Under the pieces are notes generated by a model. It was not told the origin of the DNA and did not search any database. It saw only the letters and a list, made by a program, of their open reading frames with translations. Positions 28,184-38,856 of a DNA stretch of 51,653 nt are shown piece after piece. Position 1 is the stretch's first letter. Every line of letters begins with the position of its first letter. Origin of the DNA: a virus. The DNA lies in the IMG/VR virus record IMGVR_UViG_3300044799_000328, positions 1 through 51,653 of that record; one strand, 5' to 3'. A program made the position numbers and the translations under genes.

Positions 28184-28516
28184 TTACGTCGACTCGTATT
28201 TCTTTGGTCTTCCTGGTGGACCCGGATGCTTCAGAGGTTTAACCACGCTCCAGTAGTACTTTCGGGCCCTCGTGGCTCGGCAGGTACGGCAGTAACGAAT
28301 CGTATTGTAACCCCTCTTGTACGTCCCCAGATTATCGCCTGAATATTCATGACCCTGGGGGCAGTGCGTCTTATCACGGTTTACGGGGTTACCCTTCCAC
28401 TTTTGCGCCCTCCTCACACATATCGAACAGGCTCCATTCGGCCTGCGGTTAGTCCCGGTAAGATCGTGTCCTCTAGGACAGATTATCCGGTTGTCGCTCT
28501 TTCTCAGTCTCGGCAT
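28184..28516 (-). CDS. Double zinc-ribbon protein (HNH-associated type)
   Basis: 110 residues from ATG 28516. Two repeats of a metal-binding pattern: ICPRGHDLTGTN with CSICVRR, then HCPQGHEYSGDNL with RYCRTCR. Such CxxGH...CxxC ribbons usually precede the catalytic part in HNH-type nucleases, but no HNH core is present here. C-terminus basic. Likely DNA-binding, perhaps a remnant or partner of a homing enzyme. Its own promoter is at 28534-28562. Confidence 0.6.
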   Translation of the reverse strand: MPRLRKSDNRIICPRGHDLTGTNRRPNGACSICVRRAQKWKGNPVNRDKTHCPQGHEYSGDNLGTYKRGYNTIRYCRTCRATRARKYYWSVVKPLKHPGPPGRPKKYEST

Positions 28517-28533
28517 AACTTTTACCAGAAACA

Positions 28534-28562
28534 ATCATGACATTTCTCCCGTCAAATGTCAA
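28534..28562 (-). promoter_or_regulatory. Sigma70-type promoter
   Basis: TTGACA (28562-28557), 17-base spacer, CATGAT (28539-28534), 17 bases before ATG 28516 on the minus strand. It lies in the gap between two genes. Confidence 0.5.
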
Positions 28563-28579
28563 TAGAAAGTTTCTACTGA

Positions 28580-28786
28580 CTAAACAACGGTCATGCCCAG
28601 AATCGCCTGCACAGCTCCCAAATCGCGTTCGTCAATGGCAACAACACTGCCGTATCCATCAAACCGATACATTCTTCCGGAGGCTCCTCCGCGAACTTTC
28701 GTTGGACCGTCCCCTGACCATCGAACTGAAATATATCCAGGAGCGTTTTTGGTGGGGCGCTTCTGTTTATCGCCGCAGCATCCCAT
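28580..28786 (-). CDS. Hypothetical 68-residue protein
   Basis: ATG 28786 with SD GAGGAACTCT; overlaps the upstream DUF1360 gene by 20 bases. It starts MGCCGDKQKRP and has a compact segment GASGRMYRFDGYGSVVAID followed by ERDLGAVQAILG, a pattern of small phage proteins of unknown function (glycine turn, YRF strand, Asp-rich end). Confidence 0.6.
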   Translation of the reverse strand: MGCCGDKQKRPTKNAPGYISVRWSGDGPTKVRGGASGRMYRFDGYGSVVAIDERDLGAVQAILGMTVV

Positions 28787-29048
28787 AGAGTTCCTCAATA
28801 ATCATTACCACGGCAGACATAGCCAACCAGTATAGGAACCACGACTGCCAAAAAAACGCCAGCACAAACATCAGGCTAAACCAGACGCTCAAACACTTGA
28901 CACATTTTATCAATTTTTCGATTTCGTGGTCGTTGAACAAGTAGCGGATATCCCACATAAAATACCATGGTCCATCCTCTTGGGAAACAAAATGGCATAT
29001 ACGCCAGCATGCGAGACAACACAAAATAAACGTCACCGGAGGATTCAT
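28767..29048 (-). CDS. DUF1360 membrane protein
   Basis: 93 residues, ATG 29048 overlapping the upstream TGA. It matches the DUF1360 pattern: CLACWRICHFVSQEDGPW, then IKCVKCLSVWFSLMFV, with hydrophobic spans at about 3-16, 54-66 and 68-84. DUF1360 proteins are small phage and bacterial inner-membrane proteins of unknown role. Start and stop overlap its neighbours, as in a tight operon. Confidence 0.8.
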   Translation of the reverse strand: MNPPVTFILCCLACWRICHFVSQEDGPWYFMWDIRYLFNDHEIEKLIKCVKCLSVWFSLMFVLAFFWQSWFLYWLAMSAVVMIIEELYGMLRR

Positions 29049-29317
29049 TTGTTGGGCGCTCCGGATACGGTTGGAATCGGGTGCTGCCGCGAAGCCCAGG
29101 AGGTCGCAATAGCCATTGCTATTCCGGCCTTGAGATCATCCGCGTTAGTGTCCAAGAACTTTCCCACGGCAACCATGGCACCAGCAGCCATGTTATCCGC
29201 GACCGGCGCAGCTGCTTGCAAGATGGCCATACTGATGATTTCTTCGACCGTTTTCCTATTATGGTCTAGCCAGTTGTATACGCCCTTCTCGATTGCTCCT
29301 GAATAGTCAGTTGACAT
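29045..29317 (-). CDS. Hypothetical 90-residue protein
   Basis: ATG 29317 after TAGGTAATAAAC, 19 bases downstream of the initiator-like tRNA. It starts MSTDYSGAIEKGVYNWLDHN, is helical and Ala-rich (AILQAAAPVADNMAAGAM). No family recognised; first of a three-gene overlapping group. Confidence 0.55.
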   Translation of the reverse strand: MSTDYSGAIEKGVYNWLDHNRKTVEEIISMAILQAAAPVADNMAAGAMVAVGKFLDTNADDLKAGIAMAIATSWASRQHPIPTVSGAPNK

Positions 29318-29335
29318 GTTTATTACCTAAAAGAT

Positions 29336-29406
29336 TGGTTGCGGAACTCGGAGTCGCACCGAGGAGCCAGGGTTATGGGCCCCAGCCGTAGACTGCTACT
29401 TCCGCG
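29336..29406 (-). tRNA. Initiator-like tRNA-Met (anticodon CAT)
   Basis: CGCGGAA/TTCCGCA gives a C1-A72 mismatch and the end GCAACCA, both hallmarks of initiator tRNA. Three G-C pairs end the anticodon stem (GGG/CCC), another initiator sign. The loop CCCATAA has C at position 33. The D loop lacks the usual GG and the T loop is TGCGACT, so it is also partly degenerate. Its first 11 bases overlap the 3' end of the HNH gene at 29396-29956. Confidence 0.75.
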
Positions 29407-29956
29407 ATATATCATTTATAAAAAACATCTTATGATCAAATTCCCAATGACAATTCGGACACAAAGAAAGCACATTTTCGTTGTCGTTTATTTCCGAGAC
29501 CATAGCAGTCCCAGGAAAACTCCTAATAGGTGTTACATGACATGCTTCTGTAAAAACAGAATACCCACACCTCTCACACGCGCCGCCTCTGAAAACCCTT
29601 CTAGAGTGGTTGTAAATCTCTCTCTTGTTGGAGTCTTTCTTTCTCTTTTTACCGACAATATCCTTGCGAGCATCAATGCATTCATCGCAAGATTTTCTTT
29701 CGCATCCTAAAATATCGCATCCGCAATGCCTGCAACTATACACCTTCTTTTTTCTATGTTCGTTTCCGTACTTAGCGCAACACGAACTGTCACAAAATTG
29801 CTTCCTTCTTATAGCGCTACATTTTTCTTCCGGTCCAATATCTATAACAAAACCACAAAATTTACAAATTTTAGGGTTTTTATAGTAGCGATCAATCGCC
29901 TCGATCCTCTGAATTATGCCTCTAGATTTCCCACCTGCCGATTGTCTTGAACCCAT
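29396..29956 (-). CDS. HNH endonuclease 1
   Basis: 186 residues. N-terminal Cys pairs (CKFCGF; CRHCGC; CDEC) form zinc ribbons for DNA binding, followed by GGACERCGYSVFTEACHV and the HNH core ending ENVLSLCPNCHWEFDH. It should cut DNA at a specific site, as mobile HNH enzymes do. It reads as more AT-rich than its neighbours, a sign of independent entry. A TATAAT box stands 6 bases before ATG 29956, with no SD. The TAG stop lies at positions 9-11 of the downstream tRNA. Confidence 0.85.
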   Translation of the reverse strand: MGSRQSAGGKSRGIIQRIEAIDRYYKNPKICKFCGFVIDIGPEEKCSAIRRKQFCDSSCCAKYGNEHRKKKVYSCRHCGCDILGCERKSCDECIDARKDIVGKKRKKDSNKREIYNHSRRVFRGGACERCGYSVFTEACHVTPIRSFPGTAMVSEINDNENVLSLCPNCHWEFDHKMFFINDISRK

Positions 29957-29962
29957 GAAAGT

Positions 29963-29983
29963 ATTATATCACATCCAAGTCAA
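29963..29983 (-). promoter_or_regulatory. TTGACT-N9-TATAAT promoter-like motif
   Basis: TTGACT (29983-29978), 9 bases, TGATATAAT with an extended -10 (TATAAT 29968-29963). The -10 ends 6 bases before the HNH ATG, so transcripts would begin at or next to the start codon. Fourth copy of the 9-base-spaced motif. Confidence 0.5.
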
Positions 29984-30149
29984 TGGCCCGCACCAAAATT
30001 TCAAATCGCCAAGCCCTTCTCCACCTCGGCAACACCCTCCAGTAATCACCGTTGGGCATTCTGAAAATCTTGAAGAGCTTGGTTTCCCACACAACAACCG
30101 CCCCAGAGGCTAGGATCTTCTCCCAGTCATTCTTGGTGTTAATGATCAT
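29964..30149 (-). CDS. Hypothetical 61-residue protein
   Basis: ATG 30149 with SD CCGGAGATT; a longer frame to 30194 would overlap the upstream gene. It starts MIINTKNDWEKILASG and has Trp/Arg-rich patches (YWRVLPRWRRAWRFEILV). It ends 8 bases before the HNH gene start. Confidence 0.55.
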   Translation of the reverse strand: MIINTKNDWEKILASGAVVVWETKLFKIFRMPNGDYWRVLPRWRRAWRFEILVRAIDLDVI

Positions 30150-30159
30150 AATCTCCGGA

Positions 30160-30525
30160 TTAAATGTCTCCGTCTCGATTAAATGAATTGGCAATCAGAG
30201 CCCGAGCAGCTGCTCGCTTGGCTTCCTTCTTGGTAACCGGACGCTGCCGACAATAACCAGCTTCTTCATCGGATAGTCCTATCATCGTCCGATAAGCGCG
30301 AACCGCCGCGATCTCCAGTCCGGTTGGACCAGCGAGTTTATCGACAGGATTGCGCTTGGTTACACCGATAAACTTCTCGCCAGCCGTTTCGATCAGGACG
30401 AAAGTAAAGTTGCCAGCCGAACCAAAATAGGCCGTTAACTTGTTGGGCACGGGCAGACCCACACGTTCACGGGAGGGAATAAGAGCAAGCAGGCCCTCCC
30501 TGCTAAGTTTAACTAATGCGCTCAT
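30160..30525 (-). CDS. Hypothetical 121-residue protein
   Basis: ATG 30525 with SD GAGGTTAAC. N-terminal beta-rich half (AYFGSAGNFTFVLIETAGE) and a helical, basic C-terminal half (VTKKEAKRAAARALIANSF). No family recognised. Confidence 0.6.
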   Translation of the reverse strand: MSALVKLSREGLLALIPSRERVGLPVPNKLTAYFGSAGNFTFVLIETAGEKFIGVTKRNPVDKLAGPTGLEIAAVRAYRTMIGLSDEEAGYCRQRPVTKKEAKRAAARALIANSFNRDGDI

Positions 30526-30558
30526 GTTAACCTCGTTGGACCCGCAAAACGCGGATCG

Positions 30559-30855
30559 TTAAATTTCTTTCCGTTGGGCTAATGGGACAGAAAGTTTGTG
30601 TTTCCCTGGGGAACCATCCCCCGCCTCAAATTGTCTCCATTGCATGTCTAGAATCTTTCCGCATACCATGCAGGTAAGTTCTCGGTGCTTTCCATAGATT
30701 ATTGGATCGCCCGTCTTCCTTGGAATATACTGCCAATACTTACTCTCCCATACCGGTAAATGTACCCGACCAGGGCGTCCTTTACACCAGTGCTTCGTGT
30801 TTTTCTTTGCTCTATGTTTTGGGGGTGTTTCCTTTGCCTCCAGAACATCCAGCAT
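30559..30855 (-). CDS. Hypothetical 98-residue Cys-containing protein
   Basis: ATG 30855 (GGCGGG upstream) is preferred; ATG 30894 would overlap more of the upstream gene and has no SD. It starts MLDVLEAKETPPKHRAKK. HWCKGRPGRVHLP and ELTCMVCGKILDMQWRQFE suggest one metal site. Overlaps the upstream gene by 44 bases. Function unknown. Confidence 0.5.
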   Translation of the reverse strand: MLDVLEAKETPPKHRAKKNTKHWCKGRPGRVHLPVWESKYWQYIPRKTGDPIIYGKHRELTCMVCGKILDMQWRQFEAGDGSPGKHKLSVPLAQRKEI

Positions 30856-31051
30856 CGACCCGCCATACTGTTTCAATGGGCTGCTTCTTCGCATTGGGTG
30901 TTAAAACAACCTCCCTGGTTAAGACGTTTTCTCCTGATAGCTCCACCACTACTCCGGTAATTCTGGCTCGATAGCCTTCGTTATGATAAGCCTCCTTGAT
31001 CTTGTCCTGAAGTTCCTGGAGTGCCTTCCCCACCGTTATCTGTTTCAACAT
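30812..31051 (-). CDS. Hypothetical 79-residue protein
   Basis: ATG 31051 with SD GGAGGGCGGAAGACG. It starts MLKQITVGKALQELQDKIKE, continues with a strand RARITGVVVELSGENVL. The gene starts 71 bases inside the KTSC gene in another frame, a long overlap for this phage. Function unknown. Confidence 0.5.
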   Translation of the reverse strand: MLKQITVGKALQELQDKIKEAYHNEGYRARITGVVVELSGENVLTREVVLTPNAKKQPIETVWRVDAGCSGGKGNTPKT

Positions 31052-31268
31052 CGTCTTCCGCCCTCCTACATTTGTGCGCCCGGCGCAATTCGATTTGAGC
31101 AAACCGACCCTTGGACGAGGTATGCTGAAATTCTTCCCACATCCCAGGACCAACGTCTTCGTAAATGTAGACGGCATCCGTGTTAAACTTGACGTAACAC
31201 TCTTGCTTCTCTTCGTCGTAAGCAATCGCCGCGACGTTACTACTTCCCAGGACTTGCTGCCAATGCAT
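30981..31268 (-). CDS. KTSC domain protein
   Basis: 95 residues, ATG 31268 after GGAGGCAGACGAAG. SSNVAAIAYDEEKQECYVKF, then YIYEDVGPGMWEEFQ and SSKGRFAQIELRRAH, is the KTSC domain pattern (a small beta-alpha domain found fused to or beside DNA and lysyl-tRNA synthetase-like proteins; role unknown). The polar Gly/Asp-rich tail overlaps the next gene. Confidence 0.75.
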   Translation of the reverse strand: MHWQQVLGSSNVAAIAYDEEKQECYVKFNTDAVYIYEDVGPGMWEEFQHTSSKGRFAQIELRRAHKCRRAEDDVETDNGGEGTPGTSGQDQGGLS

Positions 31269-31446
31269 CTTCGTCTGCCTCCACGATGTAGACCGGATGG
31301 GAGTTCATATGGAATACCGTTGCCAGGGTTAGGATCGCCAGAGCGTGTGCGCTAAAAATACCTTCTTCTCGTAACATCTCATGAAAGATCTCCCTGATTT
31401 CCAGGGCCGCTTCCTCCTTGGTCTTCATTCGAAGTCTTACTGACAT
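31240..31446 (-). CDS. Hypothetical 68-residue protein
   Basis: ATG 31446 is chosen because AAAGG stands 6 bases upstream; ATG 31452 directly abuts the SD. It starts MSVRLRMKTKEEAALEIREI and is helical. It overlaps the KTSC gene by 29 bases. A longer frame to 31588 runs into tRNA-Ile and is not supported. Confidence 0.5.
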   Translation of the reverse strand: MSVRLRMKTKEEAALEIREIFHEMLREEGIFSAHALAILTLATVFHMNSHPVYIVEADEDALAASPGK

Positions 31447-31540
31447 ATTCATCCTTTCGTTTTTGGGGGGCTCCGCTGTCCCAAGTTGCCGCAAGAGATT
31501 TCAGCGGATCCTCCTCCCCGCGCAGGCAAGCAGGGATTCT

Positions 31541-31616
31541 TGGTAGTGGAGGGTTGCCTCGAACAACCAACAAGCGATTATAAGTCACCCGTTTTAGCCA
31601 ATTAAACTACTCCACC
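31541..31616 (-). tRNA. tRNA-Ile (anticodon TAT)
   Basis: Acceptor GGTGGAG/CTCCACT (G1-T72 wobble), A73 and encoded CCA. Anticodon loop CTTATAA with T33; T arm GGTTG-TTCGAGG-CAACC. Reads AUA codons, which are rare in many bacteria. Confidence 0.85.
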
Positions 31617-31620
31617 AAAA

Positions 31621-31695
31621 TGGCGGGACGGGATGGAATTGAACCACCGACGCCCAGCTCTTCAGGCTGGCGCTCTACCCCTGAGCTACCGCCCC
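31621..31695 (-). tRNA. tRNA-Phe (anticodon GAA)
   Basis: Acceptor GGGGCGG/CCGTCCC, G73, encoded CCA. Anticodon arm CCAGC-CTGAAGA-GCTGG. T arm GGTGG-TTCAATT-CCATC. Confidence 0.9.
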
Positions 31696-31696
31696 A

Positions 31697-31773
31697 TGGT
31701 CCGACCAGCGGGATTTGAACCCGCGATTCCCGGCTTGAAGGGCCGGTGTCCTAGACCGCTAGACGATGGTCGG
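31697..31773 (-). tRNA. tRNA-Glu (anticodon TTC), C33
   Basis: Acceptor CCGACCA/TGGTCGG, A73, encoded CCA. The D arm (GTCT...AGGAC) is typical for Glu. Anticodon arm CCGGC-CCTTCAA-GCCGG puts C, not T, at position 33. T arm GCGGG-TTCAAAT-CCCGC. Confidence 0.88.
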
Positions 31774-31783
31774 TTACTAAATA

Positions 31784-31860
31784 TGGTAGCGAGGGAGGGA
31801 TTCGGACCCCCAGATTCCTGCTTCTAAAGCAGACTCCTTTGCCGGTTAGGATACCTCGCC
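31784..31860 (-). tRNA. tRNA with anticodon TAG (Leu codon CUA), short variable loop
   Basis: Acceptor GGCGAGG/CCTCGCT, A73, encoded CCA. Anticodon arm TCTGC-TTTAGAA-GCAGG gives TAG, which reads the leucine codon CUA. The variable region is only 5 bases, whereas bacterial tRNA-Leu has a long arm. T loop is TCCGAAT. Charging identity is therefore uncertain. Confidence 0.75.
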
Positions 31861-31861
31861 G

Positions 31862-31955
31862 TGGTGCGGAGGGAGCGATTCGAACGCCCAATGTTAACTC
31901 ATAACGAGCCCAGATTTACAGTCTGGTGTAGCACCACCGTCTCTACCGCCTCCGC
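31862..31955 (-). tRNA. tRNA-Tyr (anticodon GTA)
   Basis: Acceptor GCGGAGG/CCTCCGC, A73, encoded CCA. Anticodon arm CCAGA-CTGTAAA-TCTGG. Long variable arm as in bacterial tRNA-Tyr. T arm GGGCG-TTCGAAT-CGCTC. Confidence 0.9.
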
Positions 31956-31962
31956 AAAAATT

Positions 31963-32036
31963 TGGTGGAAACCGAGGGAGTCGAACCCTACATCCTGGGT
32001 GCAAACCAAGCGTGCTCCCGTTACACCACGGTCCCA
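31963..32036 (-). tRNA. tRNA-Ala (anticodon TGC)
   Basis: Acceptor TGGGACC/GGTTTCC has the alanine identity pair G3-T70 but a T1/C72 mismatch. A73 and encoded CCA. Anticodon arm CTTGG-TTTGCAC-CCAGG. Its first 16 bases overlap the end of HNH gene 2. Confidence 0.82.
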
Positions 32037-32536
32037 CATAAACTTTGCAAAGATATTATTTCATCGTGCAGTTCTCCATGACAATTGGCGCACAGAACGA
32101 CACATTTATCCAATTCCTTTTTAAGAACATCCCAGGACCTGCAATACTCACCGCCTATCTGGAATTTCTTATCTGAACCATCCACATGATGAAACCCTAG
32201 GGATCTTTCGCATTTATTATATCCACAAACAACACATGCGCCACCCTTATACTCAAGAGCCCTCTTTTTTCTTGCTCTCCTTTGGTTGTTCGCCACACAA
32301 GAATTACACTTGGTTCTTGAATGACCGGATCTCTTGTTGTATACGTAAACCCTTCCACATGAACAAGTAAAAACTGGATGATTTCTGGCTGGTTCGTTTA
32401 TCGAAATATCAATTGTATTTCTTGAACCAAACGGAGAGCAGTTAAGACAAAATTTCCTTCTATTCAAAACCCTCCGTTTTCCATCTATTGTTTTTCTGTT
32501 CGGAATTTGACCATTACACTTTTTGCAATATCTCAT
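32021..32536 (-). CDS. HNH endonuclease 2
   Basis: 171 residues. Zinc pairs CKKCNGQ and CLNC, then TCSCGR and CNSC, precede a GGACVVCGY...LGFHHVDGSDKK...VVLCANCHGELHDE HNH core. Strand AT-rich compared with the tRNAs around it. A TTGACA-N18-TATATT promoter ends 6 bases before ATG 32536 with no SD. The stop codon TAA lies inside tRNA-Ala. Probably a free-standing homing-type enzyme. Confidence 0.85.
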   Translation of the reverse strand: MRYCKKCNGQIPNRKTIDGKRRVLNRRKFCLNCSPFGSRNTIDISINEPARNHPVFTCSCGRVYVYNKRSGHSRTKCNSCVANNQRRARKKRALEYKGGACVVCGYNKCERSLGFHHVDGSDKKFQIGGEYCRSWDVLKKELDKCVVLCANCHGELHDEIISLQSLCGTVV

Positions 32537-32542
32537 TCATAA

Positions 32543-32572
32543 AATATAGCACAATAGACAGATCGTTGTCAA
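32543..32572 (-). promoter_or_regulatory. Sigma70-type promoter for HNH 2
   Basis: TTGACA (32572-32567), 18-base spacer, TATATT (32548-32543). Only 6 bases separate the -10 from ATG 32536, so the mRNA should be leaderless or nearly so. Confidence 0.6.
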
Positions 32573-32590
32573 TATGTATTTAAGCTACAT

Positions 32591-32667
32591 TGGTCCAGGG
32601 AGTAGGATTCGAACCTACGATCTTCGGATTATCGATCCGCTGCTCTGGCCATCTGAGCTATCCCTGG
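32591..32667 (-). tRNA. tRNA-Ile (anticodon GAT), C33
   Basis: Acceptor CCAGGGA/TCCCTGG, A73, encoded CCA. D arm GCTC...GAGC. Anticodon arm GCGGA-TCGATAA-TCCGA: position 33 is C and the 27-43 pair is G/A. T arm GTAGG-TTCGAAT-CCTAC. Confidence 0.87.
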
Positions 32668-32689
32668 TCATAAATTACCTGTATAAGTC

Positions 32690-32761
32690 CAGGGGCGGCA
32701 CGATTTGAACGCGCAACGCATGGCTTTGGAGGCCAGCAGGATTCCATTTCAACACGCCCCT
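32690..32761 (-). tRNA. tRNA-Trp (anticodon CCA)
   Basis: Acceptor AGGGGCG/CGCCCCT, G73 (Trp identity). No encoded CCA (GAC follows). Anticodon loop CTCCAAA with T33. T arm GCGCG-TTCAAAT-CGTGC. The D arm is irregular. Confidence 0.82.
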
Positions 32762-32762
32762 A

Positions 32763-32839
32763 TGGCGGACGCTACGGGATTCGAACCCGTGATTTTCGGA
32801 TTGACAATCCGATGCCTTGAGCCTCTAGGCCAAGCGTCC
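32763..32839 (-). tRNA. tRNA-Asp (anticodon GTC)
   Basis: Acceptor GGACGCT/AGCGTCC, G73, encoded CCA. Anticodon arm TCGGA-TTGTCAA-TCCGA. T arm ACGGG-TTCGAAT-CCCGT. Confidence 0.9.
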
Positions 32840-32840
32840 G

Positions 32841-32914
32841 TGGACTTGCGGGGGAGACTCGAACTCCCATGCGCCGGGTTGCAACCGGCTCCCTGGCCAT
32901 TCGGGCACCGCAAG
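32841..32914 (-). tRNA. tRNA-Cys (anticodon GCA)
   Basis: Acceptor CTTGCGG/CCGCAAG, T73, encoded CCA. Anticodon arm GCCGG-TTGCAAC-CCGGC. T arm GGGAG-TTCGAGT-CTCCC. Confidence 0.9.
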
Positions 32915-32932
32915 TTTGTTTCCGGTTCTGAA

Positions 32933-33018
32933 CGACGGTGCCGGATAAGGGTGTATCCTGCGTCTCCTGGCTCCAGGTATCCTTTGCGTGGCCATTGCAC
33001 CCATTAGACGAACCGTCG
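32933..33018 (-). ncRNA. tRNA-like element A, no canonical anticodon or T arm
   Basis: An 86-base block framed by a perfect CGACGGT/ACCGTCG stem, with inner pairing GGATA-CACCCT-TATCC near its 3' end. I cannot place a T loop, an anticodon loop or CCA. It shares GCCACGCAAAGGATACCTGG and CCTTATC segments with element B at 34301-34383. Either a strongly altered tRNA or a separate RNA family. Confidence 0.45.
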
Positions 33019-33028
33019 ATAAATCGGT

Positions 33029-33164
33029 GGGGGGCCAGCATCTCTTTCCTACAAGTATCTTAGTGGTTACTCCCTAAAGCCGTTTAGAATGCGCTTTTTC
33101 TACTGCGCTCAACTATCCGGGCCCTCTTGTAGTAATCGTTAGCGGGTGCTACCCGCGACCCCCC
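33029..33164 (-). ncRNA. Structured RNA candidate in the tRNA array
   Basis: A 136-base block without a gene, framed by GGGGGG/CCCCCC. Inside are a perfect hairpin GCGGGT-AGC-ACCCGC (33142-33156), a 7-pair long-range helix CTACAAG/CTTGTAG (33126-33132 with 33049-33055) and a GCGC hairpin. It begins 6 bases after the 3' end of tRNA-Leu. Nested helices argue for a functional RNA; no known family recognised. Confidence 0.45.
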
Positions 33165-33170
33165 ATAAAT

Positions 33171-33255
33171 TGGTCCAGCGGGAGAGATTTGAACTCTCAT
33201 GTCCAAAGACCGAGGCTTTTAAGACCTCTGTGTATTCCGTTCCATCCACCGCTGG
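33171..33255 (-). tRNA. tRNA-Leu (anticodon TAA)
   Basis: Acceptor CCAGCGG/CCGCTGG, A73, encoded CCA, long variable arm. Anticodon arm GAGGT-CTTAAAA-GCCTC. T arm GAGAG-TTCAAAT-CTCTC. Confidence 0.88.
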
Positions 33256-33262
33256 ATATATC

Positions 33263-33351
33263 TGGTCCCCGAGGAGGGACTTGAACCCCCACGCTCTTTC
33301 GAACACTGGCTTTTGAGACCAGTCTGTCTGCCAGTTCCAATTCACTCGGGG
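33263..33351 (-). tRNA. tRNA-Leu (anticodon CAA)
   Basis: Acceptor CCCCGAG/CTCGGGG, A73, encoded CCA, long variable arm. Anticodon arm CTGGT-CTCAAAA-GCCAG. T arm GGGGG-TTCAAGT-CCCTC. Confidence 0.88.
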
Positions 33352-33360
33352 TTATTCCAA

Positions 33361-33975
33361 TCAGAAATCCTTAGTCTTTAATTTTACAATCAGCCGAGCA
33401 CCCTTCTTATCGAATAACGTTTCGACGGTGCGTCCCACGAGGCCCTCAGCCGATCCGTGAATTCCAAGTTTGGAAATAAATCCGGATCTGACAAAATCAG
33501 TAGCCTCTTCCAGGGTCATCTCTCCCATGTATGGAACCACATCAAGACCAAGTTTTGCAGCTATATCACAAGTGTTTTCCCAGCTCAGCCACCATTTTCC
33601 ATCCATAAGCACATCAAAAACAATCAACTTCTTGGTTGGACTATAGCTTACTCCGCCCTTTTGAATACCGGCTCCGTATCCTTCTCCATAAATAACCATG
33701 TCTGTAACTTCTGGAAGATTTCTCCTTATAGACTCGGCGGATAGGTTTTCATAGAGATACTTGATCAAATCTGCGTGAATCTGAGCATTGTTTGTTTTCC
33801 CACCAAATGTCAGCTTGCCGTCCTTCCAGATACATCGAATATTCGTGCCGTCGATTTTCTCGGTCCAATGCCAAGATTTTATGATACCGTAAACACGATT
33901 TTTAAGAATTCCCGGTTTGACCTTGAAATCTTCTCCGCGCTCATACAGAGTCTCGATTTTTGGATATTCACTCAT
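33361..33975 (-). CDS. RNA ligase (Rnl2/REL-like)
   Basis: 204 residues, ATG 33975 after GGAGAATAGGTAG. Nucleotidyltransferase motifs are in order: I EKIDGTN (39-45, K40 predicted to take AMP), III YGEGYG (96-101), IIIa IVFDV (118-122), IV EGLVGR (177-182) and V LIVKLK (195-200). It lacks a long C-terminal domain, so it is close to the minimal ligase core. RNA ligases of this kind reseal broken RNA, including tRNAs cut by host anticodon nucleases in T4. Its position inside the tRNA array fits that job. Confidence 0.88.
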   Translation of the reverse strand: MSEYPKIETLYERGEDFKVKPGILKNRVYGIIKSWHWTEKIDGTNIRCIWKDGKLTFGGKTNNAQIHADLIKYLYENLSAESIRRNLPEVTDMVIYGEGYGAGIQKGGVSYSPTKKLIVFDVLMDGKWWLSWENTCDIAAKLGLDVVPYMGEMTLEEATDFVRSGFISKLGIHGSAEGLVGRTVETLFDKKGARLIVKLKTKDF

Positions 33976-33978
33976 TTT

Positions 33979-34041
33979 CTACCTATTCTCCGGCCTGGGG
34001 GGGTTAATTTTCACCACATATTCATTTTCCGACTCGGACAT
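33979..34041 (-). CDS. 20-residue leader peptide before RNA ligase
   Basis: ATG 34041 with SD AGGAAATCTT, stop TAG 3 bases before the ligase ATG. Peptide MSESENEYVVKINPPRPENR has a Pro-Pro-Arg-Pro stretch near its end, which can slow ribosomes. It could couple or regulate ligase translation. Found only by direct reading. Confidence 0.45.
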   Translation of the reverse strand: MSESENEYVVKINPPRPENR

Positions 34042-34060
34042 AAGATTTCCTGAAAACAAA

Positions 34061-34090
34061 ATTATGACACAAATACAAACTTTCTGTCAA
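34061..34090 (-). promoter_or_regulatory. Sigma70-type promoter for RNA ligase
   Basis: TTGACA (34090-34085), 18-base spacer, CATAAT (34066-34061), 20 bases before the leader peptide ATG. Overlaps the end of the upstream gene by 4 bases. Confidence 0.6.
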
Positions 34091-34281
34091 CTAAAATTTG
34101 TGATATGAGCAATGATTTCCTTGCAAAATTTATGAAAATAAGCACAGGCCACAAATGCTGTATTGTGGGCCATTATTTGTCTGGTATTACCTATCGCGCC
34201 CGGTTCCGGGTTCCCCAAGACTTGGTTATAAACATCGCTCCACAACTCAGGGTACTTCTTCTTCAGCATACTTGCTCTCAT
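34087..34281 (-). CDS. Hypothetical 64-residue protein
   Basis: ATG 34281 with SD GGAGGTTTACG; the longer frame to 34416 would cross element B and tRNA-Ser. It starts MRASMLKKKYPELWSDVYNQ and is helical. No family recognised. Confidence 0.6.
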   Translation of the reverse strand: MRASMLKKKYPELWSDVYNQVLGNPEPGAIGNTRQIMAHNTAFVACAYFHKFCKEIIAHITNFS

Positions 34282-34300
34282 CGTAAACCTCCAAATAAAA

Positions 34301-34383
34301 TCGTGTCGCGCCCGGTATGATAAGGCATGTCCCCGCCCCGCTTGCAAGTGACCCGAGGTCCACTTTGTGGCAACGCGACACGA
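34301..34383 (-). ncRNA. tRNA-like element B, framed by a 10-base inverted repeat
   Basis: TCGTGTCGCG and CGCGACACGA pair perfectly and enclose 63 bases. Inside are CCAC-AAA-GTGG and GACC-TCG-GGTC hairpins. It starts 3 bases after tRNA-Ser and ends just before the SD of gene 34281. Similar to element A: GCCACAAAGTGGACCTCGG and CCTTATC in the same order. No T loop or CCA. Confidence 0.5.
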
Positions 34384-34386
34384 AAA

Positions 34387-34471
34387 TGGCGGAGGGAGCA
34401 GGGGTCGAACCCGCATGGCCTTTCGACCGGCGATTTAGCAAACCGCTTCCCTACCTTTAGGAGACCCCTCC
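34387..34471 (-). tRNA. tRNA-Ser (anticodon GCT)
   Basis: Acceptor GGAGGGG/TCCCTCC, G73, encoded CCA, long variable arm. Anticodon arm GCGGT-TTGCTAA-ATCGC. Its first 15 bases overlap the 3' end of gene 34457-34708. Confidence 0.9.
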
Positions 34472-34708
34472 GTTTTCTTTACAGTAATCCACTAACTCCA
34501 ATATTAGTGCTTCACGGCTACCAATAAGTCTATACTTTCCTCGATGTTCGAAAATGACAATGTTGAAAGAAGAAATTTCCATTGGGGATTGCGACCAATA
34601 CCTTAGTTCCCGATCTAGCACCGGAACTCGGTATTGCCTACCGCTCATAGATATTTCCCTCGGGTCGCTCTCCAGGAGCCCTCCGAATGCGCTCAAAACA
34701 ACTAGCAT
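34457..34708 (-). CDS. Hypothetical 83-residue protein ending in a tRNA
   Basis: ATG 34708 has a strong SD (GGAGGTTTA); an inner ATG at 34648 also has one. It starts MLVVLSAFGGLLESDPREIS, with a beta-rich middle (FNIVIFEHRGKYRLIGSREA). The TAA stop lies 15 bases inside tRNA-Ser. Function unknown. Confidence 0.55.
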   Translation of the reverse strand: MLVVLSAFGGLLESDPREISMSGRQYRVPVLDRELRYWSQSPMEISSFNIVIFEHRGKYRLIGSREALILELVDYCKENGGVS

Positions 34709-34729
34709 TAAACCTCCGTAATATCAGGA

Positions 34730-34850
34730 CGACCGGTCGGAATCGAACCTAACGTTTGATCAGGGCAGGTTCCCGGCCACTTCGCGGAGTTGAACCGATG
34801 CGCCCTGAGACGCACCTCACAGGGCCATTCCTGGTCACCTGCGCCGGTCG
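34730..34850 (-). ncRNA. Structured element with one tRNA-like T arm
   Basis: A 121-base block framed by CGACCGG/CCGGTCG. It contains a hairpin GCCCTG/CAGGGC, a long-range pair GCAGGT/ACCTGC, a small hairpin CCGC-GAA-GTGG, and a GG-TTCGATT-CC T-loop-like segment near the 3' end with a poor stem. Too short for a group I intron. It begins 6 bases after tRNA-Arg. Not assigned. Confidence 0.4.
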
Positions 34851-34856
34851 GAAATA

Positions 34857-34933
34857 TGGGGCAGGGGGCGGGAATCGAACCCGCGACCTCGTGCTTCGGA
34901 AGCACGCGCTCTTGTCCGCTGAGCTACCCCCAC
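34857..34933 (-). tRNA. tRNA-Arg (anticodon CCG)
   Basis: Acceptor GTGGGGG/CCCCTGC, C73, encoded CCA. Anticodon arm CGTGC-TTCCGAA-GCACG. T arm GCGGG-TTCGATT-CCCGC. Confidence 0.9.
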
Positions 34934-34939
34934 TCAAAA

Positions 34940-35017
34940 TGGACCGGGCGAGAGGATTTGAACCTCCGACCTCGCACGTTCGTAGCGTGGTGCTCTAGTC
35001 CGCTGAGCTACGCCCGG
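34940..35017 (-). tRNA. tRNA-Arg (anticodon ACG)
   Basis: Acceptor CCGGGCG/CGCCCGG, T73, encoded CCA. Anticodon loop CTACGAA with T33; one C/C mismatch at the base of the stem. T arm GGAGG-TTCAAAT-CCTCT. Confidence 0.9.
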
Positions 35018-35025
35018 TTATATCT

Positions 35026-35101
35026 TGGAGCCCCTGGTGTGAATCGAACACACGACCTTCCCCTTACCAAGGGGACGTTCTGCCACTGCAACTACAGGGG
35101 C
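35026..35101 (-). tRNA. tRNA-Thr (anticodon GGT)
   Basis: Acceptor GCCCCTG/CAGGGGC, T73, encoded CCA. Anticodon arm TCCCC-TTGGTAA-GGGGA. T arm GTGTG-TTCGATT-CACAC. Directly abuts the next tRNA gene. Confidence 0.9.
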
Positions 35102-35177
35102 TGGAGCGGGCAACGAGGCTCGAACTCGTCACCTCTGACTTGGCAAGCCAGCGTTCTACCCACTGAACTATGCCCGC
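35102..35177 (-). tRNA. tRNA-Gly (anticodon GCC)
   Basis: Acceptor GCGGGCA/TGCCCGC, T73, encoded CCA. Anticodon arm CTGGC-TTGCCAA-GTCAG. T arm ACGAG-TTCGAGC-CTCGT. Its first base is the last base of the TAG stop of gene 35177-35431. Confidence 0.9.
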
Positions 35178-35431
35178 TAAATAACTTTGATATGGCCGGG
35201 TTTAATCCAGTTCAGGATCTTTCCTAGCCACCTCCAATACCAATACCTGTTATATCCCCGAGCGCATCGACCACTGATGCATTCGTCCGGGTCGCCCCCC
35301 AAAAGCGAGTTCCCCAGTTGGTCGATCCCTATTAAAACGCCCATGACATAGGTCCTGAATCCGCGTTTTCTGATGTTAATAACGCTGGATATCAGCACTA
35401 TAAATAGCAAAATTGACAGCGGAATAATCAT
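35177..35431 (-). CDS. Small membrane-anchored protein
   Basis: 84 residues, ATG 35431 with weak SD. N-terminal hydrophobic span (MIIPLSILLFIVLISSVI), then a second hydrophobic stretch (YVMGVLIGIDQLGNSLLGG) ending in GGDPDECISGRCARG, a motif that recurs in small phage membrane proteins of unknown role. Stop shares one base with tRNA-Gly. Confidence 0.6.
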   Translation of the reverse strand: MIIPLSILLFIVLISSVINIRKRGFRTYVMGVLIGIDQLGNSLLGGDPDECISGRCARGYNRYWYWRWLGKILNWIKPGHIKVI

Positions 35432-35462
35432 TTTTCACGATCCGTAACCGTTTTTCACAAAT

Positions 35463-35552
35463 TGGCGGAAGAGGTAGGATTTGAACCCACGGATGTGTTT
35501 CCATCTACGGTTTTCAGGACCGCCGCGATAAACCAGACTCCGCCACTCTTCC
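35463..35552 (-). tRNA. tRNA-Ser (anticodon TGA), C33
   Basis: Acceptor GGAAGAG/CTCTTCC, G73, encoded CCA, long variable arm. Anticodon arm GCGGT-CCTGAAA-ACCGT with C at position 33. T arm GTGGG-TTCAAAT-CCTAC. Confidence 0.88.
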
Positions 35553-35810
35553 TTATTTAAGATTCAACTTCGGAGGAACCATCGTTGGCACGACAATCTT
35601 GGACTCCTCCTTTATCCGAACTAAGCCCAAATTCAACTGGACCGCCATAATCTGTGTCGAGTATTTAGCGCCGCAGTTGGGGCACTCCGCGTGTCCATTA
35701 AGCATTGCCACGGTACTCATAAGTACGCCATTCTGCACCTGGGGCGGAAATGGTGGCGGCACCGGTGTCATTTCTTCTTTACAAAGCTCACAAAAAAATG
35801 CCTGTTTCAT
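35553..35810 (-). CDS. Zinc-ribbon protein, 85 residues
   Basis: ATG 35810 with SD TGGAGTTAGA. CELCKEEMTP near the N-terminus and ECPNCGAKYS near residue 45 form a Cys4 site. A Pro-rich loop (PVPPPFPPQ) lies between. Ends exactly where tRNA-Ser begins. Function unknown. Confidence 0.6.
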   Translation of the reverse strand: MKQAFFCELCKEEMTPVPPPFPPQVQNGVLMSTVAMLNGHAECPNCGAKYSTQIMAVQLNLGLVRIKEESKIVVPTMVPPKLNLK

Positions 35811-35840
35811 TCTAACTCCAGTTTTCAGCAAACGTTGAAA

Positions 35841-35915
35841 TGGAGCCAGGAGGGTGACTCGAACACCCGTCTGTCGCTTACGAGGCGACCTCTCTGCCAG
35901 TTGAGATATCCAGGC
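35841..35915 (-). tRNA. tRNA-Thr (anticodon CGT)
   Basis: Acceptor GCCTGGA/TCCTGGC with one T/T mismatch, T73, encoded CCA. Anticodon arm GTCGC-CTCGTAA-GCGAC. T arm GGGTG-TTCGAGT-CACCC. Confidence 0.88.
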
Positions 35916-36103
35916 TAAACCGATTCAGAGACTCCCGTTACCTTAAATTCTCCGTCCATGTAATCGCCACAAAACTCAACAAAATCACTCTCAGAAAGAT
36001 GTTTGGCCTTTTCCAGAGCCTCTTCCAAAGAATGAGCGCTTACAGATATCGAAACCAAAATGTTAAGTCTCGCCTGAACCTCAAATTCAATCAATTTCGC
36101 CAT
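35915..36103 (-). CDS. Hypothetical 62-residue protein
   Basis: ATG 36103 with SD AAGGAGCTGTC. It starts MAKLIEFEVQARLNILVSIS, then a helix SAHSLEEALEKAKHL: a beta-alpha-beta pattern of small phage proteins. Its stop shares one base with tRNA-Thr. Function unknown. Confidence 0.6.
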   Translation of the reverse strand: MAKLIEFEVQARLNILVSISVSAHSLEEALEKAKHLSESDFVEFCGDYMDGEFKVTGVSESV

Positions 36104-36120
36104 GACAGCTCCTTATAATA

Positions 36121-36196
36121 TGGAGCCCACGGTGCGATTCGAACGCACCCGATCGGCTTTACAAGGGCCGCACTCCGCCTACGGAGACTCGTGGGC
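36121..36196 (-). tRNA. tRNA-Thr (anticodon TGT)
   Basis: Acceptor GCCCACG/CGTGGGC, T73, encoded CCA. Anticodon loop CTTGTAA with T33; 31-39 is a C/A mismatch. T arm GTGCG-TTCGAAT-CGCAC. Confidence 0.88.
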
Positions 36197-36210
36197 TAAT
36201 GGACAAACCG

Positions 36211-36267
36211 GGTGCTGGTTCGGGAATATAGCACCATACCCTACCGCCCGTTTGCCTATGTGGTGCT
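36211..36267 (-). other. Mutually exclusive helices (switch-like leader)
   Basis: Minus strand AGCACCA (36267-36261), TGGTGCT (36236-36230) and AGCACC (36216-36211): the middle segment can pair with either outer one. An additional CAAAC/GTTTG pairing surrounds the second hairpin. Non-coding stretch before tRNA-Thr(TGT). Confidence 0.35.
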
Positions 36268-36276
36268 CCACGTTTC

Positions 36277-36351
36277 TTTTGTGGACATTCCGGTTGGGCA
36301 CGAAGGCGTTGACCGGATCGCTTGGCCCACTCTAAAGAGATGCCCACAAAA
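36277..36351 (-). ncRNA. Structured element after tRNA-Pro
   Basis: A 75-base block framed by a perfect TTTTGTGG/CCACAAAA inverted repeat, with inner CTC-TTTA-GAG and CCGGT/ACCGG pairings. It starts one base after the CCA end of tRNA-Pro. No gene and no tRNA features found. Confidence 0.35.
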
Positions 36352-36352
36352 A

Positions 36353-36430
36353 TGGTCGGGGCAGCAGGAGTCGAACCTGCGTCGTCCTCGTTCCAGGCCG
36401 AGGGCCTCTATACCGCTAGGCTACACCCCG
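36353..36430 (-). tRNA. tRNA-Pro-like (TGG) with 8-base anticodon loop
   Basis: Acceptor CGGGGTG/TGCCCCG has the proline-type C1-G72 pair; A73 and encoded CCA. A perfect stem CCTCG/CGAGG encloses the 8-base loop GCCTGGAA, one base longer than normal, with C where T33 should be. T arm GCAGG-TTCGACT-CCTGC. Confidence 0.82.
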
Positions 36431-36434
36431 ATAA

Positions 36435-36510
36435 TGGGGTGAGGGGTGGGAGATCGAACCCACTCTTGTTGGGTCACATCCAACAGTGCAAGCCCCTACA
36501 CTACCCTCAC
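36435..36510 (-). tRNA. tRNA-His (anticodon GTG)
   Basis: Acceptor GTGAGGG/CCCTCAC, C73, encoded CCA. Anticodon arm GTTGG-ATGTGAC-CCAAC. T stem GTGGG/CCCAC with an 8-base loop. The base before G1 is T, so the extra G(-1) of tRNA-His is not encoded. First 15 bases overlap HNH gene 3. Confidence 0.85.
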
Positions 36511-36870
36511 ATATCTATTCCTTTTGTACTCCCTATGCCAATTATTCCATACACTCTTGCATAATTGGCACCTACACCCATGCTTACTATATCTGCTCAA
36601 TGTTCCGTGTTTGGCCTCATGGGCTTTTTTATGACATCTCCCACACATAGGAATGCATTTAATAATCTCGTTAATAAATTTATCAAGACCGCAGGTCCAC
36701 ATTGCTGATATATTTTTCGTTTTTACTTCACGATCCTTGTGATGATAGTGTATACTATCGTCTGACCCGCATACAGAACAAATACCTCCTAATATATTTT
36801 GAGCTATTCCCTTTCGAAAAATCCGTACTTTTTTAGCCCATTCTCTTTTCTGATCTTTAGTATAAGGCAT
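36496..36870 (-). CDS. HNH endonuclease 3
   Basis: 124 residues. ATG 36870 follows GGTATAATAAAT, the same 12 bases that precede ATG 37049. A single zinc-knuckle HNH unit: GGICSVCGSDDSIHYHHKDR, then CIPMCGRCHKKAHEAKHG, followed by a second Cys group HGCRCQLCKSVWNNWHREYK shared with HNH 4. The TAG stop lies 15 bases inside tRNA-His. Likely homing-type activity. Confidence 0.85.
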   Translation of the reverse strand: MPYTKDQKREWAKKVRIFRKGIAQNILGGICSVCGSDDSIHYHHKDREVKTKNISAMWTCGLDKFINEIIKCIPMCGRCHKKAHEAKHGTLSRYSKHGCRCQLCKSVWNNWHREYKRNRYVRVV

Positions 36871-36875
36871 ATTTA

Positions 36876-37049
36876 TTATACCCACACACTTGGCGGGTTC
36901 CCCTTGCTGCTCCTTACCCATCGGTTGCAGCTTCGACAATAGGGCCGGTTGGGAACCCATAATTCTGTGGGATCGAGTACGGCTTGAAGCATGACCCTTG
37001 CAAAGGTCGGTTCAGCACCGGAGATCCCACGATCAAATTTATAAAACAT
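36876..37049 (-). CDS. Possible 57-residue Cys-containing protein
   Basis: ATG 37049 after GGTATAATAAAT at the end of tRNA-Asn. It starts MFYKFDRGISGAEPTF and contains YCRSCNRWVRSSKG. Its stop overlaps the second copy of the GTATAATAAATATG segment that starts HNH 3. No SD. Moderate evidence. Confidence 0.45.
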   Translation of the reverse strand: MFYKFDRGISGAEPTFARVMLQAVLDPTELWVPNRPYCRSCNRWVRSSKGNPPSVWV

Positions 37050-37060
37050 ATTTATTATAC

Positions 37061-37134
37061 CTGTGGGAGCAGGATTCGAACCTGCGTACTCATGATTAAC
37101 AGTCATGCGCTTTTACCATCTCGGCCATCCCACA
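37061..37134 (-). tRNA. tRNA-Asn (anticodon GTT)
   Basis: Acceptor TGTGGGA/TCCCACA, G73. No encoded CCA: the 3' end runs straight into GTATAAT of the next gene. Anticodon arm CATGA-CTGTTAA-TCATG. T arm GCAGG-TTCGAAT-CCTGC. Confidence 0.88.
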
Positions 37135-37137
37135 AAA

Positions 37138-37620
37138 CTATTTCCTACTATAATCGTTCTGGTCAAGCACCTTAACAATCGCGGTCGGAAACTGTCGCTG
37201 AAGAATTTCTACCTGCAACTTCAACGACCGCTTCTGATCCTTGGCTGCTATCGAGGACCATTCTACACCGGTATCCGGGTCCTGCGCAACCACAATCTTC
37301 GTAAATTCGTGTGCGTTCTCCTCTGTGATTCCATCGACGATACCGAGCAGCCCCACCCATGTGCCATCCCTCATCCCCCAGAGAACATCGCCGACCTGAG
37401 TCCAGTTGTGAACCCAAAACATTCCGGGTTCCTCTTTGAGACTTCCAACCACGATCGCACATCCCGGCACGGGTGGAATATCCCCCACATCGGTAAAGGT
37501 CGGGAAGAACATTATTGCTTTCCCATATTCGCCCGGCGACCACGCTTCAAAAGCTTTCTTCTGAGCTTCGAGCGCAGTCGAATAATCAGTCTCAGTTCTG
37601 AACGCAGGCGGATTGCTCAT
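37138..37620 (-). CDS. Hypothetical 160-residue protein
   Basis: ATG 37620 with GGAG and AAGG upstream and an extended -10 (TGTTATAAT) 17 bases before it. Soluble; Trp-rich beta patches (PGMFWVHNWTQVGDVLWGM) and a helical C-terminus (RSLKLQVEILQRQF). No family recognised. Ends 3 bases before tRNA-Asn. Confidence 0.6.
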   Translation of the reverse strand: MSNPPAFRTETDYSTALEAQKKAFEAWSPGEYGKAIMFFPTFTDVGDIPPVPGCAIVVGSLKEEPGMFWVHNWTQVGDVLWGMRDGTWVGLLGIVDGITEENAHEFTKIVVAQDPDTGVEWSSIAAKDQKRSLKLQVEILQRQFPTAIVKVLDQNDYSRK

Positions 37621-37651
37621 GCCTTGGAAGCTCCGTTATTATAACATGTCT

Positions 37652-37726
37652 TGGTCCAGGGCGCAGGACTTGAACCTGCAACGTACCGGTTAAGAGCCGG
37701 GCACTCTACCATTGAGTTAGCCCTGG
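37652..37726 (-). tRNA. tRNA-Lys (anticodon CTT)
   Basis: Acceptor CCAGGGC/GCCCTGG, A73, encoded CCA. Anticodon loop CTCTTAA with T33. T arm GCAGG-TTCAAGT-CCTGC. Confidence 0.9.
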
Positions 37727-37728
37727 AC

Positions 37729-37804
37729 TGGTCGGGCCGGAGAGACTTGAACTCTCACCTCTCGGGTTAAAAGCCCGCTACTCAGCCACTAGAGTTTCGG
37801 CCCG
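37729..37804 (-). tRNA. tRNA-Lys (anticodon TTT)
   Basis: Acceptor CGGGCCG/CGGCCCG, A73, encoded CCA. Anticodon loop CTTTTAA with T33. T arm GAGAG-TTCAAGT-CTCTC. Confidence 0.9.
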
Positions 37805-37805
37805 A

Positions 37806-37889
37806 TTATTTATTTCCATGGAACTTTTGGTGGGCCGCCGCGTACCTTGTGGGTACCCTCTTGCCACACTTGTTGCATTTGTGTTTCAC
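37806..37889 (-). CDS. 27-residue zinc-finger microprotein
   Basis: GTG 37889 with a strong SD (AGGAGGTTAGA), stop TAA 37806. The peptide contains CNKCGKRVPTRYAAAHQKFH: two Cys three apart and two His four apart, the spacing of a C2H2 finger. It lies between tRNA-Lys and tRNA-Val. Likely a minimal metal-binding peptide; function unknown. Confidence 0.6.
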   Translation of the reverse strand: MKHKCNKCGKRVPTRYAAAHQKFHGNK

Positions 37890-37906
37890 TCTAACCTCCT
37901 AAAATT

Positions 37907-37981
37907 TGGTCCTCGGGGAGGGATTCGAACTCTCAGCCTTCTCCTTGTAGGGGAGATAGTCTACCATTGACGTACCCAAGG
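37907..37981 (-). tRNA. tRNA-Val (anticodon TAC), C33
   Basis: Acceptor CCTTGGG/CCCGAGG, A73, encoded CCA. Anticodon arm TCTCC-CCTACAA-GGAGA with C at position 33. T arm GAGAG-TTCGAAT-CCCTC with one mismatch. Confidence 0.85.
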
Positions 37982-37987
37982 ACTGAA

Positions 37988-38049
37988 GGGTCCTGTCGGG
38001 CAGGCATCCGATCACCTTATAGCCCGATTCGTTACATTTCGCAGGACCC
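37988..38049 (-). ncRNA. Nested hairpin element before tRNA-Val
   Basis: 62 bases framed by a perfect GGGTCCTG/CAGGACCC stem, with a second perfect stem TCGGGC/GCCCGA inside. It ends 6 bases before tRNA-Val. A weak frame (37899-38105) crosses it without an SD. Could be a reduced tRNA or another RNA. Confidence 0.4.
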
Positions 38050-38266
38050 ACAAACTGGCCGGGAACAGTGAAAGCTGATAGCCGGTAAACAATCAAATCC
38101 ATCAACTAAGGCAACAATCGACAAGGCCGTTAGGCACAACCAACAATCAACTATCGTCGGTTTGACCCGAACTGTATTGTCCTTCATGGACATGAAGTCA
38201 ATTGATTATCGTCGCTGTTCTCAGTGCGACTAGGCTACCCACATCCCTCACTGTCCCCGATAACTC
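38050..38266. other. Non-coding stretch with short direct repeats and hairpins
   Basis: No supported gene in about 215 bases. The plus strand has three AACAATC(A/G)A copies (near 38090, 38108 and 38143) and related TCAATTGATTATC. The minus strand can form CTTCATG/CATGAAG and GTCGC/GCGAC hairpins. It could hold a regulatory region or an origin; nothing decisive. Confidence 0.3.
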
Positions 38267-38557
38267 TTACTCAACCTGACCGAGAACGTTATCGTCCCAC
38301 TCATATTCAACGCGGAACGAAGCGTTCGCAGACTTAATCGCCATGTCCAGTTTCCGAATCTCGCACGCCACCCTGGTGACCAAGGCATCAAGTTTCTTCA
38401 CATTATACACCGGCTCGACTTCCTTGATCTTGTCCGCATTCGCTCCATAGAACCGAGTTTCCCTCACGGCGTTTTGATTCCGCAAAGCGATCAGTTCGCC
38501 ATGCCGGTCATTGAGCGTCTTTAGATAACCGATTCCTTCCGAAATTGTAACCTTCAT
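38267..38557 (-). CDS. Hypothetical 96-residue helical protein
   Basis: ATG 38557 with SD AAAGGGAAACAGCA, overlapping the upstream stop. It starts MKVTISEGIGYLKTLNDRHG, then LIALRNQNAV, KKLDALVTRVACEIRKLD and AIKSANASFRVEYEWDD. A helical-hairpin pattern (two long helices with conserved NDR and N-A end) recurs in phage and bacterial small proteins; role unknown. Confidence 0.6.
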   Translation of the reverse strand: MKVTISEGIGYLKTLNDRHGELIALRNQNAVRETRFYGANADKIKEVEPVYNVKKLDALVTRVACEIRKLDMAIKSANASFRVEYEWDDNVLGQVE

Positions 38558-38835
38558 TGCTGTTTCCCTTTCGTGTTGAGAAAAACCAAAGTTTCGTCGT
38601 AATCCAGAGGTCCAGAAACGGGTCCAAGGTCCTCTAGGGGCTGCACCGTACCATATGGCGCTCCAGTATCCCAGTGGGATTCTGCGTCCAGGTAGTTGTT
38701 TCCAAATTTAAACCTACTGACAATAAAGCATTTCTCGTCTTTGACAAAAATACCGAACCGTGCATTTCTGGCAATGATCCGATACAGATTACCGTTAATG
38801 CAATCATTTATTCCAATGTACGCCTCGGTCTCCAT
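38554..38835 (-). CDS. Hypothetical 93-residue protein
   Basis: ATG 38835 with SD AAGGGAGTTGTC. Beta-rich (YRIIARNARFGIFVKDEKCF) with an acidic C-terminus. It overlaps the downstream gene by 4 bases. No family recognised. Confidence 0.6.
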   Translation of the reverse strand: METEAYIGINDCINGNLYRIIARNARFGIFVKDEKCFIVSRFKFGNNYLDAESHWDTGAPYGTVQPLEDLGPVSGPLDYDETLVFLNTKGKQQ

Positions 38836-38856
38836 GACAACTCCCTTACACCAAAA

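Follow-up and report, generated by a model that had tools for sequence, protein, structure and literature searches.

Uridine 33 (U33) is a near-invariant base of transfer RNA (tRNA) and forms its U-turn. The DNA considered here, IMG/VR virus record IMGVR_UViG_3300044799_000328 of an uncultured phage, which was analyzed at its full length of 51,653 bases (GC content about 50%) and is called the window below, encodes a large tRNA array in which several genes carry C instead of T at this position (C33 instead of T33). Phage tRNAs with unusual anticodon loops are known, and C33 is a new variation on these, with no prior report of C33 in phage tRNAs found in the open-licence literature. The phages described by van den Berg et al. 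2023 (PMC10264068) resemble the window in being tRNA-rich and in having loop bases that depart from the bacterial norm near known cut sites. Position 33 was not found mentioned in that work, whereas the window alters it in several isoacceptors, without an excess in known target sets.

A bacterial C33 tRNA, possibly derived from an integrative element, is the tRNA-Asp-AUC of Streptomyces SPC6 (PMC9262613), for which efficient decoding was shown and RNA reads gave no other sequence change. Unlike the window, this case involves just one isoacceptor, an unusual one that has a purine at position 32, and no phage array. Eukaryotic initiator tRNA-Met (PMC9023262) has C33, as does an initiator-like gene of the window, although it belongs to another domain of life and C33 is noted there for the initiator only. 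In the tRNA-Cys(GCA) of the Sulfolobales (PMC7668247), C33 is lineage-wide in an elongator, but this case is archaeal and concerns one isoacceptor. We consider it probable, at roughly 60%, that the C33 genes of the window encode working phage decoder tRNAs in which either pyrimidine is allowed at position 33, with C33 tolerated and repeatedly acquired, and unusually often so in this phage family.

Extraction of the anticodon arms bears out the sequence-only reading in its count of six window tRNAs with C33. These are 6 of 33 tRNA genes, of which four are clean and two, an initiator-like and a Pro-like gene, are altered. The change was also correctly described as selective, although the genes with T33 number 27 rather than the 26 given there. 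The array and its C33 genes are as follows.

26972 to 39316, minus strand: tRNA array, with 32 tRNAs found by ARAGORN and one initiator-like gene.
31697 to 31773, minus strand: tRNA-Glu(TTC), stem CCGGC/GCCGG, loop CCTTCAA, C33; the sole Glu tRNA of the window.
32591 to 32667, minus strand: tRNA-Ile(GAT), stem GCGGA/TCCGA, loop TCGATAA, C33; identical loop in relative L052.
35463 to 35552, minus strand: tRNA-Ser(TGA), stem GCGGT/ACCGT, loop CCTGAAA, C33; identical loop in relatives L052 and L058.
37907 to 37981, minus strand: tRNA-Val(TAC), stem TCTCC/GGAGA, loop CCTACAA, C33; the sole Val tRNA of the window, with one T-stem mismatch.
36353 to 36430, minus strand: Pro-like tRNA, stem CCTCG/CGAGG, 8-nucleotide loop GCCTGGAA, C1-G72, A73.
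29336 to 29406, minus strand: initiator-like tRNA, loop CCCATAA (C33), C1xA72 mismatch, GGG/CCC flanks, encoded CCA.

The four clean genes (Glu-TTC, Ile-GAT, Ser-TGA, and Val-TAC) have 7-nucleotide loops on stems of 4 to 5 bp, and because the flanking stems fix position 33, the register of the loop is certain. All four are recognized as tRNAs by both ARAGORN and Rfam and have an intact cloverleaf except for base 33, and Ile-GAT reads the window's most frequent Ile codon. The Pro-like gene is labeled "Ser-GGA" by ARAGORN; a minimum-free-energy fold supports its 8-nucleotide loop, which has the layout of the known +1 frameshift suppressor tRNA-Pro, and its C33 is conditional on counting one G as an insertion. 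The initiator-like gene was undetected by ARAGORN and Rfam. Given its shortened D-arm and its T-loop TGCGACT, with G at T-loop position 55, it may be degenerate. Initiator-like anticodon arms in other viral loci carry T33.

As the window itself was picked for its C33, its relatives offer the fair test of whether C33 is in excess. Relatives were gathered with two of its proteins, encoded as follows.

24284 to 26179, minus strand: terminase large subunit, query for relatives.
16163 to 17137, minus strand: major head protein, query for relatives.

The baseline came from viral contigs that had been retrieved because they contain an Ile-GAT gene, and that gene was left out of the counts. C33 in related phage tRNAs, which the sequence-only reading had suggested searching for, was found in 9 of 62 distinct tRNAs, against 30 of 1273 (2.4%) in the baseline (one-sided Fisher p=4e-5), and the excess held when loci were matched by GC (p=0.0006 to 0.006). 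C33 is about five times commoner in this phage family than in other tRNA-bearing phages. The window also exceeds the 2.4% baseline, whether 4 of 31 genes (p=0.007; GC-matched p=0.02) or 6 of 34 genes, a slightly conservative denominator, are counted (p=0.0002; GC-matched p=0.001 to 0.002). Bias in GC as the entire cause is ruled out by this persistence, although the C33 rate still peaks in the high-GC quartile.

Among the relatives, L052/L053 contribute 5 of 33 tRNAs (Gln-TTG, Leu-CAA, Ser-TGA, Ile-GAT, and Thr-GGT), L054/L055 2 of 10 (Gln-TTG and Thr-TGT), L056/L057 1 of 8 (Pro-TGG, in L056), and L058/L059 1 of 4 (Ser-TGA). In each of the pairs L052/L053 and L058/L059, two separate contigs carry the same tRNAs, which speaks against an error of assembly, and because C33 recurs in relatives assembled from other metagenomes, it does not stem from a single sequencing error; for the window's own C33 genes, there was no second contig covering them. 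Within the family, C33 is common to Ser-TGA genes at 52 to 72% identity and to Ile-GAT genes at 58%. The tRNA-rich relatives have arrays that differ from one another in order and sequence, and the 64 to 110 kb relatives L012, L023, and L025 have few or no tRNAs. As tRNA content, order, and sequence all vary among relatives, the arrays appear to be rapidly gained or rebuilt in this family.

The condition of the C33 genes bears on a different explanation, in which C33 would mark genes in decay, or would have drifted neutrally where selection is relaxed, host tRNAs being sufficient. Decay is visible in places, namely in the damaged D-arm and T-loop of the initiator-like gene, the insertion in the Pro-like gene, and the T-stem mismatch of the Val gene, and a near-isogenic T33/C33 pair described below shows that one transition is enough for the change. 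For the most part, however, C33 genes roughly match T33 genes in completeness, with the anticodon stem complete in 86 versus 84%, CCA present in 60 versus 63%, and the TTCRA motif in 90 versus 93%. The tally of base 33 (T 1672, C 77, A 4, and G 4) puts C over A and G at 77 to 8, and such maintenance of a pyrimidine is not expected under decay. The same isoacceptors, moreover, have C33 in divergent relatives. We therefore regard decay or drift as quite unlikely to be the explanation.

A number of observations nevertheless weigh against C33 as a tolerated feature of working tRNAs that is enriched in this family. Genes with C33 are mismatch-free in all stems in 47% of cases, compared with 58% for T33 genes, and the change U33C lowered the function of yeast Gln and SUP4 tRNAs (PMC3664417, PMC11096365), so that C33 may be costly. 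Five of the nine C33 cases in relatives come from one phage, and the tRNA-level tests count genes as independent, which tRNAs of the same phage are not. Clustering of C33 by phage is also weak in a sample not selected for C33 (p=0.05 to 0.08 by two measures and 0.4 by a third).

Beyond the family, exact pattern scans of viral contigs found C33 in Ile-GAT in 26 contigs and in Glu-TTC in 8. Patterns of Ser-TGA with C33 occurred in 35 contigs, not all of which had a recognized tRNA there. The window's major head protein had no match in 24 other C33-bearing viral records, in a search run without a positive control, and on this basis these records seem unrelated to the window. Heterogeneity of C33 among isoacceptors is suggestive only (p=0.06). 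In pairs of genes at 85 to 95% identity, C33 was shared in 9 of the 10 pairs that contain it, a figure partly due to the C33-based choice of loci. The Ile-GAT genes of L117 (T33) and L081 (C33) differ solely at position 33, in phage arrays that are 91 to 99% alike, which shows that the state of this position flips by a single transition. One phage (L072) has two Ile-GAT genes, one with T33 and one with C33. Cultured phages with the tRNAs closest to Ser-TGA and Glu-TTC of the window have T33 where readable, the entries in L293 and L296 being unreadable as tRNAs.

C33 is nearly absent from the bacterial counterparts of these genes, which speaks to the idea that the C33 tRNAs were copied from a host clade itself having C33. 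Among some 85,000 species records of bacteria and archaea, Ile-GAT with C33 occurs in 7, at least four of which are phage-like tRNA arrays; the Novimethylophilus genome, for example, has a normal T33 Ile gene together with a C33 Ile gene within such an array. Ser-TGA with C33 was found in 0 of 67 bacterial genes (140 genomes, two phyla). A candidate for such a clade is the Coriobacteriaceae metagenome-assembled genome BH.B1_6 (G028, 1.2 Mb; L312, L329, and L333), where the only recovered Phe-GAA, Ile-GAT, and Glu-TTC tRNAs carry C33 (41 tRNAs read) and where the contig bearing the Ile and Glu genes also has ordinary chromosomal genes, namely those for FeoB, RNase R, and dehydrogenase. Its Ser-TGA and Val-TAC tRNAs have T33, however, and copying from a host of this kind appears scarcely probable at all. 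The Glu pattern matched nothing in six other genomes of the same bacterial family, and the observation therefore concerns BH.B1_6 itself.

The sequence-only reading had proposed that C33 serves the evasion of host defense. In such a scenario, host anticodon nucleases would depend on U33 or cleave next to it, and C33 would be selected because it shields the phage tRNAs from them, or because it prevents a wobble modification that these nucleases require; the phage tRNAs would then replace cleaved host ones. This is rather unlikely in our estimate, although published work gives it a basis. The reading was right that the idea exists for phage tRNAs, as anticodon-loop changes have been proposed for nuclease escape, with resistance predicted there from sequence (PMC10264068). 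PrrC cleaves 3' of U33, and RloC cuts at the same place, with tRNA-Glu most affected (PMC2610378). LshCas13a favors U-rich anticodons, including Glu-UUC, Gln-UUG, and Thr-UGU (PMC11042736), all three of which are in the C33 set of the family, and replacement of U33 by C abolished an Elongator step triggered by U33 (PMC11096365).

Several of the present findings point the same way. C33 is scarce in bacteria, and the window combines 33 tRNA genes with a gene for RNA ligase that lies among them. Phages picked for Ser-TGA C33 have further C33 in 27 of 330 other tRNAs (p=5e-6, against 26 of 1127), and those picked for Glu C33 have it in 7 of 60 (p=0.0009). Phages picked for Ile-GAT C33, on the other hand, show no surplus elsewhere (4 of 150). 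Nor was an enrichment of C33 seen among the tRNAs targeted by PrrC, colicin E5, colicin D, AriB, VapC, or LshCas13a (p >= 0.07 in every case). The two lowest p values among these target sets point in opposite directions, and the best result is that for LshCas13a in the family (4 of 13 versus 9 of 79, p=0.083). In addition, the Coriobacteriaceae genome carries C33 in its own chromosomal tRNAs, where phage escape cannot explain it.

The ligase gene merits separate consideration. In T4, tRNA repair by Pnk and Rnl1 counters PrrC. Like T4, the phage of the window carries both tRNAs and a gene for an RNA ligase, but its ligase is short and Rnl2-like.

33361 to 33975, minus strand: RNA ligase (PF09414, Rnl2-like), 204 amino acids, Pfam E=9.5e-18, PHROG RNA ligase E=1.7e-23.

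Its motifs KIDG, EGLVGR, and KLK span the nucleotidyltransferase series from KxDG to KxK. A homologue that is 71% identical lies beside tRNA-Phe in the relative G023 (L062), and in G022 two ligase matches directly follow the tRNA cluster. The position of the gene within the array fits a setting of tRNA damage and suggests that the ligase may act on cleaved tRNA; a Pnk partner did not turn up among those window proteins that were searched. An RNA ligase is no more frequent in C33-bearing phages than in others, at 4 of 11 unrelated C33-bearing records versus 5 of 18 controls, and it was discarded as a marker of C33-rich phages. The defense-evasion idea thus keeps its premises, in that C33 is real, above chance, and strongly phage-biased and accompanies a near-complete tRNA set with an RNA ligase, but the data so far do not back the expected links to anticodon-nuclease targets and to the ligase, and the bacterium's own C33 tRNAs stand outside it. 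In its broader form, C33 would be a selected family trait that marks the phage tRNA pool off from that of the host at the loop base on which nucleases or modifying enzymes rely, so that the pool survives cutting or alteration of host tRNAs; this too can only be put forward tentatively, as a possibility of rather low probability.

It could also be speculated that RNA editing converts C33 to U33. There is precedent for a gene-level C at a conserved U in the tRNAs of Methanopyrus, where C8 is edited. No PF00383 deaminase was detected in 13 family contigs, which are partial, while 12 of 14 control genomes were positive, and the sequenced Streptomyces C33 tRNA (PMC9262613) showed no other sequence change. 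We consider editing a highly improbable account of the C33 genes.

The surroundings of the C33 genes are those of a tRNA-rich phage. The genes for terminase, portal, and major head protein lie on the minus strand, as do all 32 tRNAs found by ARAGORN, and the array decodes all 20 amino acids, with Met served solely by the initiator-like gene. Three further genes are interspersed.

29396 to 29956, minus strand: HNH endonuclease gene adjoining the initiator-like gene, by profile match.
32021 to 32536, minus strand: HNH endonuclease gene within the array, by profile match.
36496 to 36960, minus strand: HNH endonuclease gene within the array, by profile match.

A tRNA-like remnant at 34733 to 34850 has acceptor-like halves CGACCGG/CCGGTCG that enclose about 100 bases, part of which resembles a T-arm, and is perhaps a tRNA carrying an insertion, or a dead gene. 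Apparent inverted repeats occur in the intergenic stretches 36197 to 36352 and 36960 to 37060, which have no Rfam match. A 7.5 kb piece of the window gave zero DNA matches to 50,697 named phages, and protein comparison of the window with named phages gave weak matches only; the host consequently cannot be named.

Taken together, the account that we favor is one of tolerated and repeatedly acquired C33 in working decoder tRNAs. T-to-C changes at position 33 would arise again and again, and C33 would be retained since the C33 loop still decodes adequately, above all where the phage supplies a near-complete tRNA set. In favor of this account are also the efficient Streptomyces tRNA and the Coriobacteriaceae genome, which appears to rely on C33 in its only recovered Phe, Ile-GAT, and Glu tRNAs. 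As C33 is about five times commoner in the family and recurs in Ser-TGA and Ile-GAT of divergent members, this tolerance is probably aided by selection that acts through the reading of the loop by host enzymes. Expression, charging, and decoding of the C33 tRNAs, and any benefit of C33, are what we infer here from the gene sequences.

In conclusion, as many as one in six of the tRNAs in a single phage break the U33 rule while the remainder of the tRNA is kept. The C33 genes are natural material with which to ask how far U33 matters for bacterial decoding and which forces shape phage tRNAs, and the Ile tRNAs of L117 and L081 provide a ready comparison of position 33 alone.

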